Shown here: piece by piece, positions 10,588 to 28,105 of the stretch
Layout of the letters: each line of letters starts with the position of its first letter
How positions within the stretch are numbered: position 1 is the stretch's first letter
Origin: an uncultured Chlorobiaceae bacterium
GTDB taxonomy: Bacteria; Bacteroidota; Chlorobiia; Chlorobiales; Chlorobiaceae
Direction: 5' to 3'
DNA: 56,809 nucleotides
NCBI GenBank assembly: GCA_903824295.1
Contig: CAIJWE010000009.1
Coordinates: forward strand, 1 to 56,809
Translations under genes and position numbers: made by a program
The notes under the pieces: generated by a model
Told to the model about the DNA's origin: nothing
Database searches by the model: none
What the model saw: only the letters and a program-made list of their open reading frames with translations

Positions 10588-11238
10588 ATGTCTTCAAATA
10601 CCGGATTCAGTCAAAGGCTCAGGGAGTATATTCTGCAAAAGCATGGTTCAATCAACTCGTTTTGCAAAACAGTCGGGATAAAATATCCGGCACAGATGAC
10701 TCCTTATCTTCAGGGAAAATGCCGTCCCGGTAAAAAAATGCTTGAACGGCTCAAAAAAGATGGTGCGGATATACAGTGGTTGCAGAGCGGTCAGATGAAG
10801 GATTATCCATTGGCTTCGCTCAGCAGTGCAATGGCATTCTCCCGATCACGCATGGATATCGATAACTTGTTCCGCCAGGTACATCTGAATGTTGGGGGTG
10901 GCAGTGACCGCTACAAGCCTGTGATTGAGGCTTATGCACTTATTGATCATTCTGAACGTCTCGTTGATATGACCGGATCAATTGAAGCCTTTTTAGGGTA
11001 TGAACCCAATGCCTTGTCAGAGGTAAGACTGGAGTCGCTGATTCATCACGATGATTATCAGCTTGTCAAGAGCATGTTGCAGCGACAACGGCAGGATGAC
11101 AATATTGTGACCCTTCATTCGAGATTTAAAAATGGTGAAGGCCTCTATGTCGGGGTCGAGTGGTGCCTCTATATAAAATGCAAGCCGATGTCAGATTTGA
11201 GAGAGTATACCATGATTTTGAGGAGGTCGAGCAGTTAA
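10588..11238 (+). CDS. HTH-PAS protein, probable signal-responsive regulator
   Basis: 216 residues from the first ATG; the frame extends upstream to a TTG at 10564. Residues about 8-66 resemble an Xre-like helix-turn-helix fold (the INSFCKTVGI / YLQGKCRPGKKMLERL pattern). Residues about 112-214 look like a PAS fold: GSIEAFLGYEPNAL, then LIHHDDYQLVKSMLQR, then a final strand pair. I recognise no gene name. A one-component sensor that reads a small ligand or redox cue and binds DNA is a reasonable inference. No output partner is adjacent. Confidence 0.7.
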   Translation: MSSNTGFSQRLREYILQKHGSINSFCKTVGIKYPAQMTPYLQGKCRPGKKMLERLKKDGADIQWLQSGQMKDYPLASLSSAMAFSRSRMDIDNLFRQVHLNVGGGSDRYKPVIEAYALIDHSERLVDMTGSIEAFLGYEPNALSEVRLESLIHHDDYQLVKSMLQRQRQDDNIVTLHSRFKNGEGLYVGVEWCLYIKCKPMSDLREYTMILRRSSS

Positions 11239-11368
11239 CTGCTTGCTACTCCTTGCTTGTTTATTCTGTTGTTTTGCTGTCGAGGGGTATTGCATTGAGC
11301 CACCCTTGGGAAAATTTGTTTATTCCATTTTTATTTGTATTAACCAGAACAGGTAACAGTTGTTCATA

Positions 11369-11692
11369 ATGTCCGGTCAAACCGGAAAGGAGGTCATGGT
11401 GATACAGTTCAGGGTTGGAGACAAGATTATCTATCATAAGCCAAAAAGATCATTTCACCCGGGTCCGAGAGCAAAACAGGTCTATCCTCTTGAGCATGGG
11501 GAGGCCTATCATTATGTGGTTGACAAGTTCTGGACCGTTGACAAGGTTAATGATGACGGAACACTTGATGTGGTTACCAGAACAGGCAAAAAAAACAAGC
11601 TGCAGACCAGCGATCCGAATATCACAAAAGCTCATCTGTTTCAGCATATTCTCTATCGCAAGCGCTTTCTCTGTTTGAACGAAGTGTCATGA
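11369..11692 (+). CDS. Conserved small protein of unknown function
   Basis: 107 residues from the ATG at 11369. A strong ribosome site (AGGAGG, 11388-11393) sits inside this frame, five bases before a GTG at 11399, so translation may really start at GTG-ATA-CAG and give 97 residues. The body is beta-rich and basic (FRVGDKIIYHKPKRS, FWTVDKVNDDGTLDVVTRTGKK), like a small SH3-type barrel, and ends in a basic helix. It has no signal peptide or membrane segment. Nucleic-acid or protein binding is conceivable but unproven. Confidence 0.65.
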   Translation: MSGQTGKEVMVIQFRVGDKIIYHKPKRSFHPGPRAKQVYPLEHGEAYHYVVDKFWTVDKVNDDGTLDVVTRTGKKNKLQTSDPNITKAHLFQHILYRKRFLCLNEVS

Positions 11693-11755
11693 CCGGCTTG
11701 GCCCTTGTGCCGGTTTGGAAAGCGTTTCGTGAACTGCCATATTACAGCTTGATTG

Positions 11756-12982
11756 TTACTCTTGAGTTATCTTCAAAAATTTTGCACCTCTCAGGGTCGC
11801 CCAACTTGACGTTGCCTGTTGGCCGGACGGAAGAGTTGTTTGGGAAGAGAGTGCTGCATTGGTGAAATTGGCATCCATGATGTTGGCGCCTTTCATGTTT
11901 GCTCCTTCAAGATTTGCCCCTTCAAGATCTGCTTCAAAGAGGGAGGCTCCTTCAAGATTTGCTCCGCTCAGGTTTGCATTGGTGAGCGTAGCCCGGTAAA
12001 GAACGGCGTTGGAGAGATTGCTTTTGCTGAGATCGGCACCTTTGAGAAATGCTCGATCAAGGTTAGCGCCCTGAAGGTTCGCTCCCTGCATTCGTGCAGA
12101 TTTCATATCCGCTCTGTGGAAATTGGCATTGTGGAGATCGGCTCCGGCCATGTCGGCATTGTTGAGAGCACGGTTTTCAAAGTTTGGCTTGCCGGAAACC
12201 TTCGATTGCTTTTTTCTCTTTGTGACCGTTTTTTCTGTTATTCCGCTATTTGGTGTACCGATACCATTTTCATGAACAGAAGGGTTCGCAGAAAGTGGTG
12301 TTTCATAGGTTATTGGTGCGCTTTCGGCTTCCCTGACAAATTGCGCGTTGTGCAGAGCACTCCATTGTGCGGTTGCTTTTTCTCCTGATGGCAGAATGGT
12401 GTTGTTTGAGAGCGTGGCCCCATTGAGATTTGCCTGTTGCACAAAGAGTGCCCCTTTCAGGTTTGCTCCACTCAGGTTAGCCCCCGTAAAATTTGCTTCG
12501 AAAAGAGTGGTGTTTGCCAGGTTGGCTCTCGAAAAATCCACATTTTCAGCCATAACCCATCGTAGATTTGCATCCTGAAGGTTTGCTCCGGTGAACATTG
12601 CGCCTTTCATGAATGATCCATTAAGATTGGTCTGAACAAGGCATGCTCCCGAGAGGTTACTCTTTTTGAGATTGGCCTTTTTTATCAACGCCATCATAAG
12701 GTTTGCTCCTTTCAGGTCAGCCAGGTCAAGCGTGGCTCCGCTGAGTTCCGCATTGATTAAAACAGTTTTGCTGAGATCAGCTCCCGTCAGGTTGGCATCT
12801 TCAAGTTCCGCCTCTTCGAGGTCAAAAGTTTCACCGGGTCTGGCCATACGCATGGAATTCCATTCTGAAACACTTTTTTTCAGCGTATTGAGAGCCTCCT
12901 GATCGTAAGCTGAGGCCGTCTGGCAGGTAGAGAGTGCCAAACCAAGAAAGAGTGCGACCACCTTATGCTCTATCTGTTTCAT
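11756..12982 (-). CDS. Exported pentapeptide-repeat protein
   Basis: 408 residues from the ATG at 12982. The frame runs on to 13057, but the signal peptide (about 8-25, ending TASA) fixes this start. Two blocks of A(N/D)LxG pentapeptide repeats, about 54-192 and 266-378, should each fold as a right-handed quadrilateral beta-helix. Each block ends in the same capping motif, LPSGxxATxxWxxLxxAxF (197-215 and 384-402), so the protein is an internal duplication joined by a polar, basic linker (about 216-265). Periplasmic or surface location is inferred from the signal peptide. No function is known; it may be structural or shield a partner. Confidence 0.88.
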   Translation of the reverse strand: MKQIEHKVVALFLGLALSTCQTASAYDQEALNTLKKSVSEWNSMRMARPGETFDLEEAELEDANLTGADLSKTVLINAELSGATLDLADLKGANLMMALIKKANLKKSNLSGACLVQTNLNGSFMKGAMFTGANLQDANLRWVMAENVDFSRANLANTTLFEANFTGANLSGANLKGALFVQQANLNGATLSNNTILPSGEKATAQWSALHNAQFVREAESAPITYETPLSANPSVHENGIGTPNSGITEKTVTKRKKQSKVSGKPNFENRALNNADMAGADLHNANFHRADMKSARMQGANLQGANLDRAFLKGADLSKSNLSNAVLYRATLTNANLSGANLEGASLFEADLEGANLEGANMKGANIMDANFTNAALSSQTTLPSGQQATSSWATLRGAKFLKITQE

Positions 12983-22977: not shown

Positions 22978-23205
22978 TTACTTTTTAGGAGCAAAAGCTG
23001 CTGAAACGCTCTGTAACACCTGATTCAGCGTACCTACCAGGTTGCTGACAAGATCGATCGCTGTTTTGCTAAGAGGCTCAATAAGCCCGGTGGCAGTTTT
23101 GATTCCGCCGGTCAGTAATTCAACCTGCTGCTGGGCAAGCTTCCCCAAGGTCTCCAAAAGGTTGGTGATTGCGCCAGATACGTCATTGCTTGTTCCGTTT
23201 GACAT
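22978..23205 (-). CDS. csmB: Chlorosome envelope protein B family (CsmB/CsmF)
   Basis: A 75-residue protein of the CsmB/CsmF family: opening MSNGT, an amphipathic helical stretch LGKLAQQQVELLTGGIKTATGLIEPLSKTAIDL, and the ending APKK. These small proteins coat the chlorosome, the bacteriochlorophyll c/d/e antenna organelle of green sulfur bacteria, within its lipid monolayer. It has no signal peptide. A ribosome site (AAGGA, 6-nt spacing) precedes the ATG and a strong terminator follows, so it is a single-gene, probably highly expressed unit. CsmB is favoured over its paralogue CsmF by overall look only. Its presence is the main evidence for the organism. Confidence 0.85.
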   Translation of the reverse strand: MSNGTSNDVSGAITNLLETLGKLAQQQVELLTGGIKTATGLIEPLSKTAIDLVSNLVGTLNQVLQSVSAAFAPKK

Positions 23206-23574: not shown

Positions 23575-24201
23575 ATGAAAGCTATCATTTTATATGACAG
23601 TAAATCCTCAAATGGTTCTACTGAGGCAGTCATCGATGCTATCGGACTCGAGCTGGTGGATGCCGGGTTTTATGTGGAAAAAGCAAAATGCAGGGCGATG
23701 GCTGACTACAGTTTTGTTCAGGATTTTGATCTTGTCATTCTTGGTGCGCCGGTTTACTATTTTATTGTTGCTTCACAGCTTTTGGGGGCGTTGATTCATG
23801 GTAACCTGAAAAAAAATCTTAAGAGGAAAAAAATTGCACTCTTCCTGACATGCGGAAGCACTCCGTCTACGGCCGCGGTGCTTTATCTGCCGCAGTTGAA
23901 AATTCATTTGATCCGCAATAAAATTCTTGCTGAAACAATTTTTCCGCCTGATGTTCTTTCAGATGGCGATGCTATTGAGCTGTTTGTTGAGGATGTGCTT
24001 TATCAATATAATAAACGCCCGAAATCCAGAGCTCTGTCTGCGAAGTGGACCGATGAGGCTCAGGAATGGTTTCAGTCCATGCCCTCCTTTATGCAGGGGA
24101 AATTCAGAACCATGGCTGAAGAGTATGCCGAGGAGAGGGGATACAAGGAGATTACCCTTGCCGTGCTTGAAGAGGCAAGGGATAACCTTGGCGGCACATA
24201 G
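23575..24201 (+). CDS. Flavodoxin domain fused to PCP_red domain
   Basis: 208 residues in two parts. Residues 1 to about 147 are a flavodoxin-like FMN domain with phosphate loop LYDSKSSNGSTEAV (6-19), VILGAPVYYFIVA (54-66) and LFLTCGSTPS. Residues about 157-205 (W158...FQSMPSFMQGKFRTMAEEYA...GYKEITLAVLEEARDNL) match the small domain (PCP_red) found at the C-terminus of the BchB/ChlB subunit of dark protochlorophyllide reductase. It is not BchB itself, because the nitrogenase-like part is absent. An electron carrier or assembly factor in bacteriochlorophyll metabolism is inferred, supported by csmB and cyclase neighbours. The terminator directly after the stop suggests a single-gene unit. Confidence 0.8.
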   Translation: MKAIILYDSKSSNGSTEAVIDAIGLELVDAGFYVEKAKCRAMADYSFVQDFDLVILGAPVYYFIVASQLLGALIHGNLKKNLKRKKIALFLTCGSTPSTAAVLYLPQLKIHLIRNKILAETIFPPDVLSDGDAIELFVEDVLYQYNKRPKSRALSAKWTDEAQEWFQSMPSFMQGKFRTMAEEYAEERGYKEITLAVLEEARDNLGGT

Positions 24202-24202
24202 T

Positions 24203-24264
24203 GCTAAGCCAACTGGGCCGATAATGATGCTGAGCCAGAATGCTCGGCTTAGTTTGTTTTTTTA
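24203..24264 (+). terminator. Terminator after the flavodoxin-PCP_red gene
   Basis: GCTAAGCC (24203-24210) pairs with GGCTTAGT (24246-24253), with further pairing of CTGG and CCAG inside, followed by TTGTTTTTTTATT. The stem also covers the stop codon of the small minus-strand ORF. Confidence 0.75.
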
Positions 24265-24374
24265 TTGGCAGAGTGCTTTCCGATAAACTTGTTCAGGAGG
24301 ATGACTATGGTAATGCCTGAAAAAAAAAAGAGGACAGGAGCGAAGAGGGAGGTGTATTGCGTGAGTTCTTGCAT
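24249..24374 (-). CDS. Possible 41-residue single-pass membrane peptide
   Basis: An ATG-initiated frame on the minus strand encodes a polar N-terminus (MQELTQYTS), one strongly hydrophobic segment of about 20 residues (LFAPVLFFFSGITIVILL), and a basic tail (NKFIGKHSANKKTN). This has the look of small photosynthetic or respiratory complex subunits: positive-inside topology and a single helix. There is no good ribosome site. It would converge on the flavodoxin gene and share its terminator stem. I do not recognise a family; the composition is the main support. Confidence 0.4.
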   Translation of the reverse strand: MQELTQYTSLFAPVLFFFSGITIVILLNKFIGKHSANKKTN

Positions 24375-24717
24375 GGTTGTTCGAATGGATAGTTTCAGGA
24401 TAGTTCTTTTCTGATGTTGTGATGGCGTTCAAAGGTGTCAGGCTTCAATCAACAGTGCTTGTGGCTTAAGAGCTTCGCGATGAGTTCCCCTTGGCTGGTC
24501 AGAGTCTCTCATCACGTGAAATTACAAAATTCACCCTGCTTTAAAAGCTTTTTCATGATGGGTAAACTCCTGGAGTTTTTCTTTTTGCTTATATTAACGC
24601 CGTTGCGGAATCAGCGTCTTGAACGTTCACGAAGCTTCTGGCGCTTTGACGGTGACTAAAGAAGGTGTAAATTTCTTTTTTATTTACAACGGTTCTATTA
24701 AATGGTAGTTGCGGCTT
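24375..24717. other. 343-bp region upstream of the lycopene cyclase gene
   Basis: AT-rich spacer with a 74-codon open frame (24435-24659) whose composition does not look coding. It should hold the cyclase promoter and possibly that of the small minus-strand ORF. No clear promoter or operator was found. Confidence 0.35.
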
Positions 24718-26262
24718 ATGGGACTGGAACAGGTACGGGAGACGCATCCGCTTGTTTATAAGCACTTTAGTCTGATCGCTGATGGTCAAAAGTATTTTGA
24801 GCAAATCCTTGAAATAGATCGGTATTGGGATCTGGCCAACAGTTGCGTATCTCTGGACGTGGTTTTTGACGGTGAGATGATGCCGACAGGTGTTGAGATC
24901 AGCGGAGAGTATGATGTCGTTTACGCAGGAGGAACTCTGGCTCTTTTTCATGCCGCGGTTATGGCTGAAAAGTACCATCGTTCAGTTCTTGTTTTTGACA
25001 GAAATGTTCCCGGAAAGTCAACGCGTGACTGGAATATATCAAGGAGTGAGCTGAAAAACCTGGAAGAGACGGGTGTTTTTTCAGCAGATGAAATAGAACG
25101 CAGTATCGTATGCCGTTATAAAACGGGCTGGGCCGAGTTTTTTGTAGAGGATGGCCGAAAAAAACGACTCTATCTTGACAGTGTGCTTGATTGTGCGGTT
25201 GATGCCGATGCACTGCTGGATCTTGCGAAACAAAAAATTTTTGCAGTAGCGGGCAATCAGGTAGTAAGTTGCCTTACCTTTAAACGCTGCTTTCAGTTTC
25301 CGGGTCATGTTGTTGTTGAAGTTGAAGATCGGAAACATGAAAAATTCTACTATAAAGCTCGACTTTTTGCTGATGCCATGGGGGTTTCTTCCCCTGTTGC
25401 CAGGCAGTTGAACAACGGACAGCCACAAACTCATGTTTGCCCTACGGTTGGCACTCTTGCTTCCGGTCTGGAGGGGGTTAATGAAGAGATTGGTGAAATA
25501 CTTGTCAGCCTTGAGCCTGCAGATCACAGTTCCGGAAATGGGCGCCAGTTAATATGGGAAGGGTTTCCTGCAGGAAAAAAGCAGTACACGACCTACCTTT
25601 TTTTTTATGACACTCTTGATTCGTGTAACGATAAGAGTCTTCTTGGATTGTTTGAAACCTATTTCACAAAACTTCCCTCCTATAAAAATCCGGGAGCTGA
25701 TTTTGTGATTCACCGACCTGTTTTTGGCATTATACCGGCATATTTTCATGATGGTTTTACCTTGGCTCGCGAAGTTGCCGACGACAATATTCTTATGATC
25801 GGCGATGCTGCTGCTCTTGGTTCTCCCTTGACTTTTTGTGGCTTTGGTTCATTTGTTCGTAATATCAAGTTATTGACTGCCGGGGTGGAGCGTCTTTTGC
25901 AGAATGGTCAACTGCAGAAAGCCACTCTTGAGCGGGTGAACGCCTACGAGCCCAATGTGGCCACCATGGCAAACCTCATGAAGTATATGTGCTACAGCAA
26001 AGAGACTGATAGCCGTAACTTTGTCAATGAAATGATGAATGAAGTGATGATCGTGCTTGACCGTCTTCCACCCCGTTATCGTGAATCACTGTTCCGCGAT
26101 ACGATGGATCTTGCTGATCTTTTTGTTGTCGGAGTTCATGTTGCCTGCAGCTATCCTGGAATTTTAAGGGCAACGGCGAGCAAGCTTGGTTTGAATGGAT
26201 CGATTGGTATGATAAAAAATATGATTGGCTGGGCTCTCTCGTCGAAATCCATGAGAAATTAA
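24718..26262 (+). CDS. cruA: Lycopene cyclase, CruA/CruB type
   Basis: 514 residues from the ATG at 24718; the TTG three codons earlier is less likely. This is the FAD-dependent CruA-family cyclase. The nucleotide-binding segment is YDVVYAGGTLALFHAAVMAE (about 65-84), with the GGTLA form of the glycine motif seen in this family, followed by VLVFDR. The C-terminal FAD contact NILMIGDAAALGSPLTFCGFGSF lies near residue 365. CruA adds a beta-ring to lycopene to give gamma-carotene, the precursor of chlorobactene; the paralogue CruB converts gamma- to beta-carotene in brown-coloured species. I cannot tell the two apart without alignment. The next gene follows within about 30 bp, so it probably heads a four-gene unit. 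Confidence 0.82.
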   Translation: MGLEQVRETHPLVYKHFSLIADGQKYFEQILEIDRYWDLANSCVSLDVVFDGEMMPTGVEISGEYDVVYAGGTLALFHAAVMAEKYHRSVLVFDRNVPGKSTRDWNISRSELKNLEETGVFSADEIERSIVCRYKTGWAEFFVEDGRKKRLYLDSVLDCAVDADALLDLAKQKIFAVAGNQVVSCLTFKRCFQFPGHVVVEVEDRKHEKFYYKARLFADAMGVSSPVARQLNNGQPQTHVCPTVGTLASGLEGVNEEIGEILVSLEPADHSSGNGRQLIWEGFPAGKKQYTTYLFFYDTLDSCNDKSLLGLFETYFTKLPSYKNPGADFVIHRPVFGIIPAYFHDGFTLAREVADDNILMIGDAAALGSPLTFCGFGSFVRNIKLLTAGVERLLQNGQLQKATLERVNAYEPNVATMANLMKYMCYSKETDSRNFVNEMMNEVMIVLDRLPPRYRESLFRDTMDLADLFVVGVHVACSYPGILRATASKLGLNGSIGMIKNMIGWALSSKSMRN

Positions 26263-26289
26263 TACTTTTTTAAACCTCTTAATTGCGTA

Positions 26290-26640
26290 ATGATCATGGC
26301 AAAAGATGAAAAAAACGGCGGATTTTTTTCCAAATTCAAAAAAAGTGAAGCATCTTCTGAAGCCACCCCATCAACGGCGCCAAGCCGTGGAGTTGCTTCG
26401 ACACCTGAAAGCAGGAACTCCGTGGTGAGCGGTGCGTTGTCCAAAACTGCTGCTGCTCCTGAGCCTGTTGAGGATTCGTCATTGTCTGAGCCCCTTATTG
26501 ATACGGTTGAAGCCTTCAATGTTTACTGCCGATCTCTGGTTGAAATTGGCACCTCGCAGTTGATGGTTGTTGATCAGGTACTTGGTATGCTTTCCAATTC
26601 GCTCAATAAAATTATTGATGGCTCTGGAACAAAAGAGTAG
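26290..26640 (+). CDS. Small protein with low-complexity N-terminus, unknown
   Basis: 116 residues (114 if the second ATG at 26296 is used). A basic start (MAKDEKNGGFFSKFKKSE) is followed by a Ser/Ala/Pro/Thr-rich disordered stretch (about 20-75), then an amphipathic helical region with VEAFNVYCRSLVEIGTSQLMVVDQVL and LSNSLNKIID. The C-terminal helix is loosely reminiscent of chlorosome envelope proteins, but I cannot assign it to a Csm family. No signal peptide or membrane segment. It lies 27 bp after the cyclase gene and 82 bp before another small gene, probably in one operon. Confidence 0.65.
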   Translation: MIMAKDEKNGGFFSKFKKSEASSEATPSTAPSRGVASTPESRNSVVSGALSKTAAAPEPVEDSSLSEPLIDTVEAFNVYCRSLVEIGTSQLMVVDQVLGMLSNSLNKIIDGSGTKE

Positions 26641-26722
26641 GTCGTCTCTTTCAGTTTTTTTTCGAGAAAAGGTTAATGGTTCAGCCACCATTTCCTTGCT
26701 AATACGGTAAGCCATAGATCTT

Positions 26723-26959
26723 ATGATGGATAATCAACAGTATCTGGTACCGGAGAGAGCTGTCAAGCCTGCGGCAGCAATTATCAGCGGAGCATTTCTC
26801 CTCTCACCATTGGGGATACCTTTTTTTGTTCGCGGAGTACCGCGGATATTGCTTGCTGGCCTTGGCGGATTTCTGGCTGGAAATGTTGTGGACAAGGTTT
26901 CTTGTAAGTTTGCTGAAAATTTGGGGCAGGTTATGCAGCAAAGGTCGACCAAGAGTTGA
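26723..26959 (+). CDS. Small hydrophobic protein, unknown
   Basis: 78 residues. After a polar start (MMDNQQYLVPERAV) there is a Gly/Ala-rich hydrophobic hairpin (about 15-58: AAAIISGAFLLSPLGIPFF, then ILLAGLGGFLAGNVV) and a polar C-terminus. It could be a two-helix membrane protein or a lipid-monolayer protein. Adjacent ATG codons at 26723 and 26726 are both possible starts. It lies 9 bp before the DUF1997-like gene. No family recognised; the location suggests a role with the carotenoid cyclase or the chlorosome. Confidence 0.6.
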   Translation: MMDNQQYLVPERAVKPAAAIISGAFLLSPLGIPFFVRGVPRILLAGLGGFLAGNVVDKVSCKFAENLGQVMQQRSTKS

Positions 26960-26968
26960 TCGCTGATA

Positions 26969-27721
26969 GTGGCAAATAGCTCATTGATCCATAGTCAACT
27001 TGCCATTGAATCAGGAACTCTCAATCCGTGCCGAATGTTTGAAAGCTTTATAAATATTCGTCCGGATTCAGGTTCTTCAATTTTTTTTCGTACATCAATG
27101 GAAGTTGTTGGCAAAAGTAAAGCGCATGTTGTGCTTGATTCATGTTTTCATGAGTCGATCCTTTATTTCTCTGATCATGAAAAGCTGCTGAAGTGTAATC
27201 CTTATTGCAGTCACGTCAAGTATTTAATGGATCGCGATATTTTTCAGTGGATTTTTCAGGTGGATGATCCCCGAAACAATCCGATTACTGCGGTGTTTTT
27301 TGTCCGCCAATTGGAGGAGGTTTTTTCGTTTGATGACAGTTACGGACAGCAGATGGCCGCCAGAGTGAAAAACAGAGCGCATCTCAATGGCAATGGAAAG
27401 CGGATTCGCTGGGAGGCGGTTCACGATCATCCCGAAATTGAACTTATCTCTCCCAACTCCTTTATCGGGCAGGCAAGTTCTGAAATATGCCTGCTGCATC
27501 AGCATGATGGTCGGACATCGGTCTATTTTGATACCAATATTGCTCTTGATTTTGATCTGTCGTTTCCTCTCAACCTTATGCCGGAAGGTCTTTTGAAGTT
27601 TATGAGTGAGGCGGTCATGTCGCAAATCATGCAGCAGGCAACAGAAAGTATGCTTTGCCAGATTCAGTCGGATATCTGCTGTACGTCGGCTGAACTTGCT
27701 GTAGAGGGTGGTAAAAAATAG
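26969..27721 (+). CDS. DUF1997-like protein (SRPBCC-type fold expected)
   Basis: 250 residues with a GTG start 9 bp after the previous stop. The layout resembles DUF1997, a family best known from cyanobacteria and plastids: an early LYFSDHEKLLKCNPYCSHVKYL element, a central beta-rich part (FQWIFQVDDPRN), then the closing segment FDLSFPLNLMPEGLLKFMSEAVMSQIMQQATESML, which matches the proline-containing C-terminal helix of such proteins. The fold could bind a hydrophobic ligand. It has no signal peptide. Being the last gene of the cyclase cluster, handling of a carotenoid or quinone is a testable idea, not a demonstrated function. Confidence 0.65.
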   Translation: MANSSLIHSQLAIESGTLNPCRMFESFINIRPDSGSSIFFRTSMEVVGKSKAHVVLDSCFHESILYFSDHEKLLKCNPYCSHVKYLMDRDIFQWIFQVDDPRNNPITAVFFVRQLEEVFSFDDSYGQQMAARVKNRAHLNGNGKRIRWEAVHDHPEIELISPNSFIGQASSEICLLHQHDGRTSVYFDTNIALDFDLSFPLNLMPEGLLKFMSEAVMSQIMQQATESMLCQIQSDICCTSAELAVEGGKK

Positions 27722-27853: not shown

Positions 27854-28105
27854 ATGATTAAAACTGAACGGGACATGCAAGATGTGATTCTGAGGTTGAA
27901 ACGGGTTGCCGGTCAGGTTGAGGGACTGGTCAGGATGATTGAAAGGGAAGAGGAGTGTTCCCAGATTATTACGCAGTTTCAGGCGGCAAAGGCTGCTTTG
28001 GACAACACCTTTTCATTGGTACTTCACCGAAACCTTAAGGAGTGCGTGAGTAATGATGACTCAAAAAGTGTTGAAAAGATTTTGAAGCTCATCTCTAAAC
28101 AATAA
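27854..28105 (+). CDS. CsoR/CstR family repressor (DUF156)
   Basis: 83 residues from the ATG at 27854; the upstream open frame runs through the operator. It is an all-helical tetrameric repressor family with RLKRVAGQVEGLVRMIE (14-30) and the sensing core C35 ... N60 ... C64. Copper-sensing CsoR has Cys-His-Cys at these positions; here the His is Asn. Loss of that His is reported for the persulfide sensor CstR, which uses two cysteines at the same spacing, so sensing of sulfane sulfur is favoured over copper. It heads the RND operon: tolC starts 6 bp later. Repression relieved by persulfide would make sense in a sulfide-oxidising phototroph. Confidence 0.88.
   Translation: MIKTERDMQDVILRLKRVAGQVEGLVRMIEREEECSQIITQFQAAKAALDNTFSLVLHRNLKECVSNDDSKSVEKILKLISKQ

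Follow-up and report, generated by a model that had tools for sequence, protein, structure and literature searches.

The DNA analysed here (the window) is a 56,809-nucleotide stretch from an uncultured Chlorobiaceae bacterium (contig CAIJWE010000009.1; genome G000, 99.98% complete), and the subject of this study is a pigment locus within it, which extends from a csmB-like chlorosome gene to a gene of the DUF1997 family and which includes cruB, encoding an orthologue of the gamma-carotene cyclase of brown green sulfur bacteria (GSB). It represents the csmB-DUF1997 pigment locus that is conserved in the Chlorobiaceae and is ordinary in kind, although the lineage to which it belongs has probably kept cruB but not bchF3 and bciD, the genes for bacteriochlorophyll (BChl) e. 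The lineage, referred to as the window clade, comprises G000 and six sister genomes. The features of the locus are listed below, with ratios of non-synonymous to synonymous substitution (dN/dS) computed against relatives.

22978-23205, minus strand: csmB-like gene for a chlorosome envelope protein of 75 amino acids (aa), the left core gene, its position kept in nearly every Chlorobiaceae locus examined (dN/dS 0.20-0.33)
23575-24201, plus strand: flavodoxin-PCP_red fusion (PF08369, 60.1 bits; PF12724, 31.5 bits), found in Chlorobium-group loci and not in Chlorobaculum-type loci
24229-24248, no strand assigned: terminator-like hairpin with a 7-bp stem containing five GC pairs, between the convergent flavodoxin gene and 41-aa open reading frame (ORF)
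24252-24374, minus strand: 41-aa ORF with a single membrane span (MQELTQYTSLFAPVLFFFSGITIVILLNKFIGKHSANKKTN), overlooked at first and detected by tblastn in almost all Chlorobiaceae loci, including Chlorobaculum (dN/dS 0.03-0.13)
24407-24484, minus strand: scar of the 3' end of a B12-type radical-SAM gene (28.1 bits versus a best score of 22.7 in 500 shuffles), retaining residues DTFERHHNIRK
24517-24595, plus strand: promoter-like element of the cruB/SM1 operon (approximately 79 bp, 73-80% identical), lying 5' of cruB in species with cruB and directly 5' of SM1 in species without it
24718-26262 (possible TTG start at 24709), plus strand: cruB, gamma-carotene cyclase orthologue of the CruB clade (dN/dS 0.10-0.13)
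26290-26640 (start may be the ATG at 26296), plus strand: SM1, small protein of 116 aa (dN/dS 0.28-0.39)
26723-26959, plus strand: SM2, Gly-rich hydrophobic protein of 78 aa, aligned with its relatives (dN/dS 0.15-0.30)
27098-27721, plus strand: DUF1997-family protein with a predicted START/SRPBCC fold, a constant member of the locus, aligned with its relatives (dN/dS 0.06-0.12)
27854-28105, plus strand: CsoR/RcnR-type metal-sensing repressor (PF02583, 75.8 bits), the core gene on the right, with TolC and RND efflux genes after it in conserved order

The ORFs that an initial annotation of this DNA had placed from the cyclase to a DUF1997-like gene ending at 27721 are all present on the plus strand, and every window gene compared with its relatives is under purifying selection, so that these are more than chance ORFs.

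The comparison of 75 loci from named genome records, and of further loci from whole genomes, revealed a constant frame in which a kinase-like gene, csmB and the 41-aa ORF point to the left and the DUF1997 gene, csoR, tolC and the RND gene point to the right. The pigment gene set held between the 41-aa ORF and the DUF1997 gene, or close by, differs by lineage: it is empty in Chlorobaculum-type green strains, consists of flavodoxin-PCP_red, SM1 and SM2 in most Chlorobium, and of bchF3, c45, bciD, nif11 and cruB in brown strains. A further set of bchU, a B12-type radical-SAM gene and an ArsA/Get3 ATPase gene was seen in several Chlorobium loci (L094, L098, L100 and others), some of which also carry a small SM2 paralogue. 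A pigment locus beside csmB had been proposed in the initial annotation and is borne out by this gene order, which is conserved across the Chlorobiaceae; csmB, the 41-aa ORF and the DUF1997 gene are its constants, and cruB is one losable tenant.

The cyclase had been labelled a lycopene cyclase, which is a misidentification. In a maximum-likelihood tree of 58 rows it lies inside the CruB clade (support 100/98), alongside the copies of Pelodictyon luteolum CIII, G047, two Chlorobaculum-side genomes and G085, whose locus (L251) agrees in both content and length with the one from C. phaeovibrioides BrKhr17 (L176). The second cyclase of G000, which is 58% identical to the first, is encoded on another contig (G000:C51:57753-59273), contains no stops and falls inside the CruA clade of the same tree (support 99/96). 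Because an intact CruA is thus encoded elsewhere and the window copy belongs to the CruB clade, the latter was ruled out as the lycopene cyclase of the species. As in brown GSB, where CruB is the gamma-carotene cyclase (PMC2889829, PMC10158934), a CruB orthologue is found in a genome that also holds CruA; unlike those strains, the window host is devoid of BChl e genes.

The distribution of cruB and bciD was surveyed in 86 Chlorobiaceae genomes. Of these, 13 carry a CruB-type second cyclase and nine carry bciD (one partial, at a contig end), with both in five; eight genomes carry cruB without bciD, and four bciD without cruB. The two genes remain positively associated (Fisher odds ratio 10.8, p 0.003, relatedness not corrected for), but with exceptions in both directions. 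Genome-wide, bciD was not found in G000 or in its six sisters, all seven of which carry cruB, and a third BchF-type gene (bchF3) was not found genome-wide in G000, which has two. Genomes of the window clade and G047 have at most two such genes, whereas all bciD genomes have three, apart from G063, a fragmented draft in which none was seen. G047 carries cruB without bciD like the window clade, although the contig that bears its cruB stops a short way off. Both inverse primers published for Chlorobaculum limnaeum bciD (PMC3613366) match the gene at 11127-12329 of the Chlorobaculum locus L252 with zero mismatch, which establishes this radical-SAM gene, c46, as the true bciD. The radical-SAM gene c12 was considered as bciD and rejected, being of the B12 type and present in nearly all Chlorobiales searched. 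To date, cruB has been reported together with bciD (PMC3613366, PMC6639628, PMC10158934), and its retention without bciD and bchF3 is a combination not reported in the open literature examined.

The converse arrangement, a bciD-bchF3 cluster without cruB, was observed in loci L254, L255, L256 and L088 (genomes G098, G109, G046 and G018, respectively). G098 and G018 combine bciD with a CruA-clade cyclase only, while G109 and G046, the latter with a partial bciD, combine it with only one cyclase, which shares 56% identity with the window copy; these loci are predicted to specify BChl e together with a monocyclic carotenoid. The brown cluster also regularly includes, between bciD and cruB, a gene for a Nif11-like leader peptide (PF07862, TIGR03798; L105:180-401, L168, L252).

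Traces of loss are visible at several positions. The brown cluster lies between csmB and the DUF1997 gene in the loci compared with the window (L252, L254), and in L252 the order is csmB-41aa-rSAM-bchF3-c45-bciD-nif11-cruB-DUF1997, where rSAM denotes the radical-SAM gene. In the sister species (L249) it is csmB-flavodoxin-41aa-rSAM-cruB-SM1-SM2-DUF1997, so that an intact radical-SAM gene stands at the position of the window scar and the order 41aa-rSAM-cruB equals that of Chlorobaculum minus bchF3-bciD-nif11. Alignment by blastn joins two sister segments at the scar, corresponding to a single deletion of approximately 1.4 kb with its junction near 24430-24444, which is common to G106. Fragments of cruB were found 5' of SM1 in two cruB-less genomes (G009 and G012): that in L132 covers residues 10-55 with an in-frame stop (E 2e-8), and that in L126 covers residues 366-386 and scores 34.3 bits to CruB of strain CIII, 28.5 to CruA and 26.6 in the best shuffle. 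The cruB gene, the two small genes and the DUF1997 gene probably form one transcript, whose promoter would drive the small genes alone in cruB-less species. A wider regulon for the promoter-like motif was rejected, as its core occurs once in the genome. The scars, the fragments and the shared element support, at the level of sequence, a single operon and past losses of cruB, and differential loss from a full 'brown' locus appears favoured over separate gains.

SM1 and SM2 could not be placed in the initial annotation, and family and PDB searches found no Pfam or PDB relatives for either. The alignment of SM1 displays a conserved basic N-terminus (MAKDEKKGGFFSRFKK), a variable Pro/Ala/Ser linker and a conserved C-terminal helix; comparison of its profile with that of CsmB gave an hhalign probability of 1.5% over 21 columns, both profiles being shallow. 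In a survey of 61 genomes SM1 was found in 28, all in one genus, and SM2 was matched in 28, 18 of them strongly. At least five genomes (G003, G005, G007, G009, G015) hold distant SM2 paralogues no more than a few kb from a B12-type (BchQ/R-like) radical-SAM gene. SM2 is Gly-rich and hydrophobic as had been described, but the hairpin then proposed was not confirmed, since the model, with two helices, is of low confidence (predicted local distance difference test, pLDDT, 56). SM1 and SM2 are not partners of cruB: many genomes that lack cruB possess them, and in Chlorobaculum neither accompanies cruB. Judging by their position, our guess would be a role in the envelope or chlorosome.

The start of the DUF1997 protein was reassigned from the GTG at 26969 to the ATG at 27098 (MEVVGKSKAH), because all homologues begin with MEVVGKS or similar. 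Its assignment to PF09366 is borderline, as the window protein, at 24.9 bits, falls below the gathering cut-off of 27, while the L120 homologue reaches 32.1 bits. AlphaFold2, supplied with 25 sequences, returned a START/SRPBCC model (pLDDT 84.9, predicted template-modelling score 0.78) with helix-grip topology around a cavity (residues 1-201), which is in keeping with the hydrophobic-ligand fold suggested in the initial annotation. The best structural match is an uncharacterised protein (3p9v_B of entry 3p9v; Z 16.8, root-mean-square deviation 2.8 over 152 residues). Further matches include the lutein-binding domain of STARD3 (Z 12.7 with 5i9j) and a Bombyx protein that binds carotenoids (Z 11.9 with 7zvr), tied with many other lipid-binding START domains; sequence identity is approximately 10%. 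A homologue lies directly 3' of a phytoene/squalene synthase gene in each of the nine genomes inspected that belong to other Chlorobiales families, and for this synthase the best NCBIfam model is cyanobacterial CrtB at a score under its cut-off. What the initial annotation suggested for the DUF1997 protein has thereby gained structural and genomic support. Binding or transfer of a long hydrophobic ligand, such as a carotenoid or a precursor of isoprenoids, in its START-like cavity is the most likely activity of the protein, and a role in carotenoid or isoprenoid handling is a plausible best guess; it is its position after phytoene synthase in related families that makes it a candidate carotenoid-handling protein.

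Two genes come after the DUF1997 gene in CIII-type brown loci, one related to 7-hydroxymethyl chlorophyll a reductase and the other encoding a short-chain dehydrogenase. The former (L105:4057-6194, L168, L250) is close to the reductase of known structure (5dqr, E 1.7e-66), and the latter presumably resembles NOL; jointly the two could undo C-7 formylation.

As cruB is the only 'brown' gene left, the organism is predicted to make a 'brown' carotenoid without the 'brown' chlorophyll. G000 possesses bchU, which makes BChl c the likely chlorosome pigment, and encodes a CrtU-like protein with amino oxidase and Rieske domains (G000:C27). CruA would convert lycopene to gamma-carotene, CruB would close the second ring and the CrtU-like enzyme would aromatise the rings to give beta-isorenieratene or isorenieratene, which would sit in the chlorosomes with BChl c rather than BChl e.

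Certain points weigh against this reading of the locus and its proposed pigment outcome. Two of the sister genomes (G010, G020) yielded no BchU, the scars span little sequence, any order of gains and losses is provisional, and a START fold indicates the type of cavity and not the ligand; moreover, the pigments of the window organism are predicted from its genes, and the function of its CruB is assigned by orthology. The window clade also sits on a long branch of the cyclase tree (0.31) and its CruB is only 62-66% identical to that of bciD-bearing strains, such that the specificity of the enzyme could have changed, for example to that of a second lycopene cyclase, in which case isorenieratene would not be made. 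We consider such a change quite unlikely given the strong purifying selection within the clade (dN/dS as listed above) and the presence of an intact CruA, next to which a second lycopene monocyclase would be redundant. That bciD is present in the organism and was missed is scarcely credible: although the assemblies are drafts, all seven genomes agree, four of the seven have a completeness of 99% or more, several of them carry the locus unbroken from the kinase gene to tolC, and bchF3 is missing too.

It is also conceivable, if unlikely, that the lineage never had bciD and gained cruB by itself, through transfer or duplication, with the gene landing behind the promoter that serves the small-protein operon. 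The promoter-like element 5' of SM1 in cruB-less species makes insertion between promoter and gene possible, and the CruB clade has long internal branches, but the Chlorobaculum-like gene order of the sister species, the cruB fragments in G009 and G012 and the retention of bciD in the same interval by related genomes such as G098 all argue against it. In the view of the initial annotation, the cyclase, the two small proteins and the DUF1997 protein work together as a module for placing or finishing carotenoids in the chlorosome or membrane. The genes are indeed adjacent, co-directional and probably co-transcribed, csmB is next door and the START fold has carotenoid-binding structural relatives; nevertheless, we regard such a module as very unlikely, since cruB occurs in only a minority of the 61 genomes and many SM1/SM2 carriers are without it, since cruB adjoins the DUF1997 gene without SM1 or SM2 in Chlorobaculum and in BrKhr17, and since the DUF1997 gene is present with or without cruB. 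Retention of cruB after loss of the BChl e genes therefore remains our preferred reading.

With respect to the neighbouring genes, the csmB-like gene has the size and position expected for CsmB, yet Pfam and NCBIfam scans returned no model in support of the name, and we take it to be csmB on its size and sequence. The flavodoxin-PCP_red fusion reported just upstream of the cyclase was confirmed; it joins a Flavodoxin_5 (HemG-like) domain to the PCP_red domain known from the end of BchB, and could be a tetrapyrrole redox protein. As the hairpin lies directly 3' of the fusion gene, the latter reads as a separate transcript. The 41-aa ORF was considered as a known reaction-centre subunit and rejected, with no PDB sequence match at E<=1.

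The window locus shares with the BChl e/isorenieratene cluster of brown GSB (bciD, bchF2/bchF3, cruB) the interval beside csmB and the DUF1997 gene, the cruB orthologue clade and, in the sister species, the neighbouring radical-SAM gene; it differs in that only cruB was kept. Our wider proposal, that the clade uncoupled isorenieratene-type carotenoids from BChl e and that, in addition, pigment proteins so far unrecognised are encoded in the csmB-DUF1997 locus (a carotenoid carrier of the START type, the 41-aa membrane protein and the two small proteins), is tentative and, taken as a whole, somewhat doubtful. The locus nonetheless supplies a concrete candidate, the DUF1997 protein, for a carotenoid-handling protein. 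Until now cruB (isorenieratene) and bciD (BChl e) have been described as co-occurring in brown GSB. If the pigments follow the genes, the chlorophyll that harvests light and the carotenoid that protects against it evolve separately, populations in lakes could combine a green chlorophyll with a brown carotenoid, and a find of isorenieratane in sediments would not suffice to indicate strains with BChl e; if the uncoupling is real, fossils derived from isorenieratene need not stem from brown GSB that contained BChl e.

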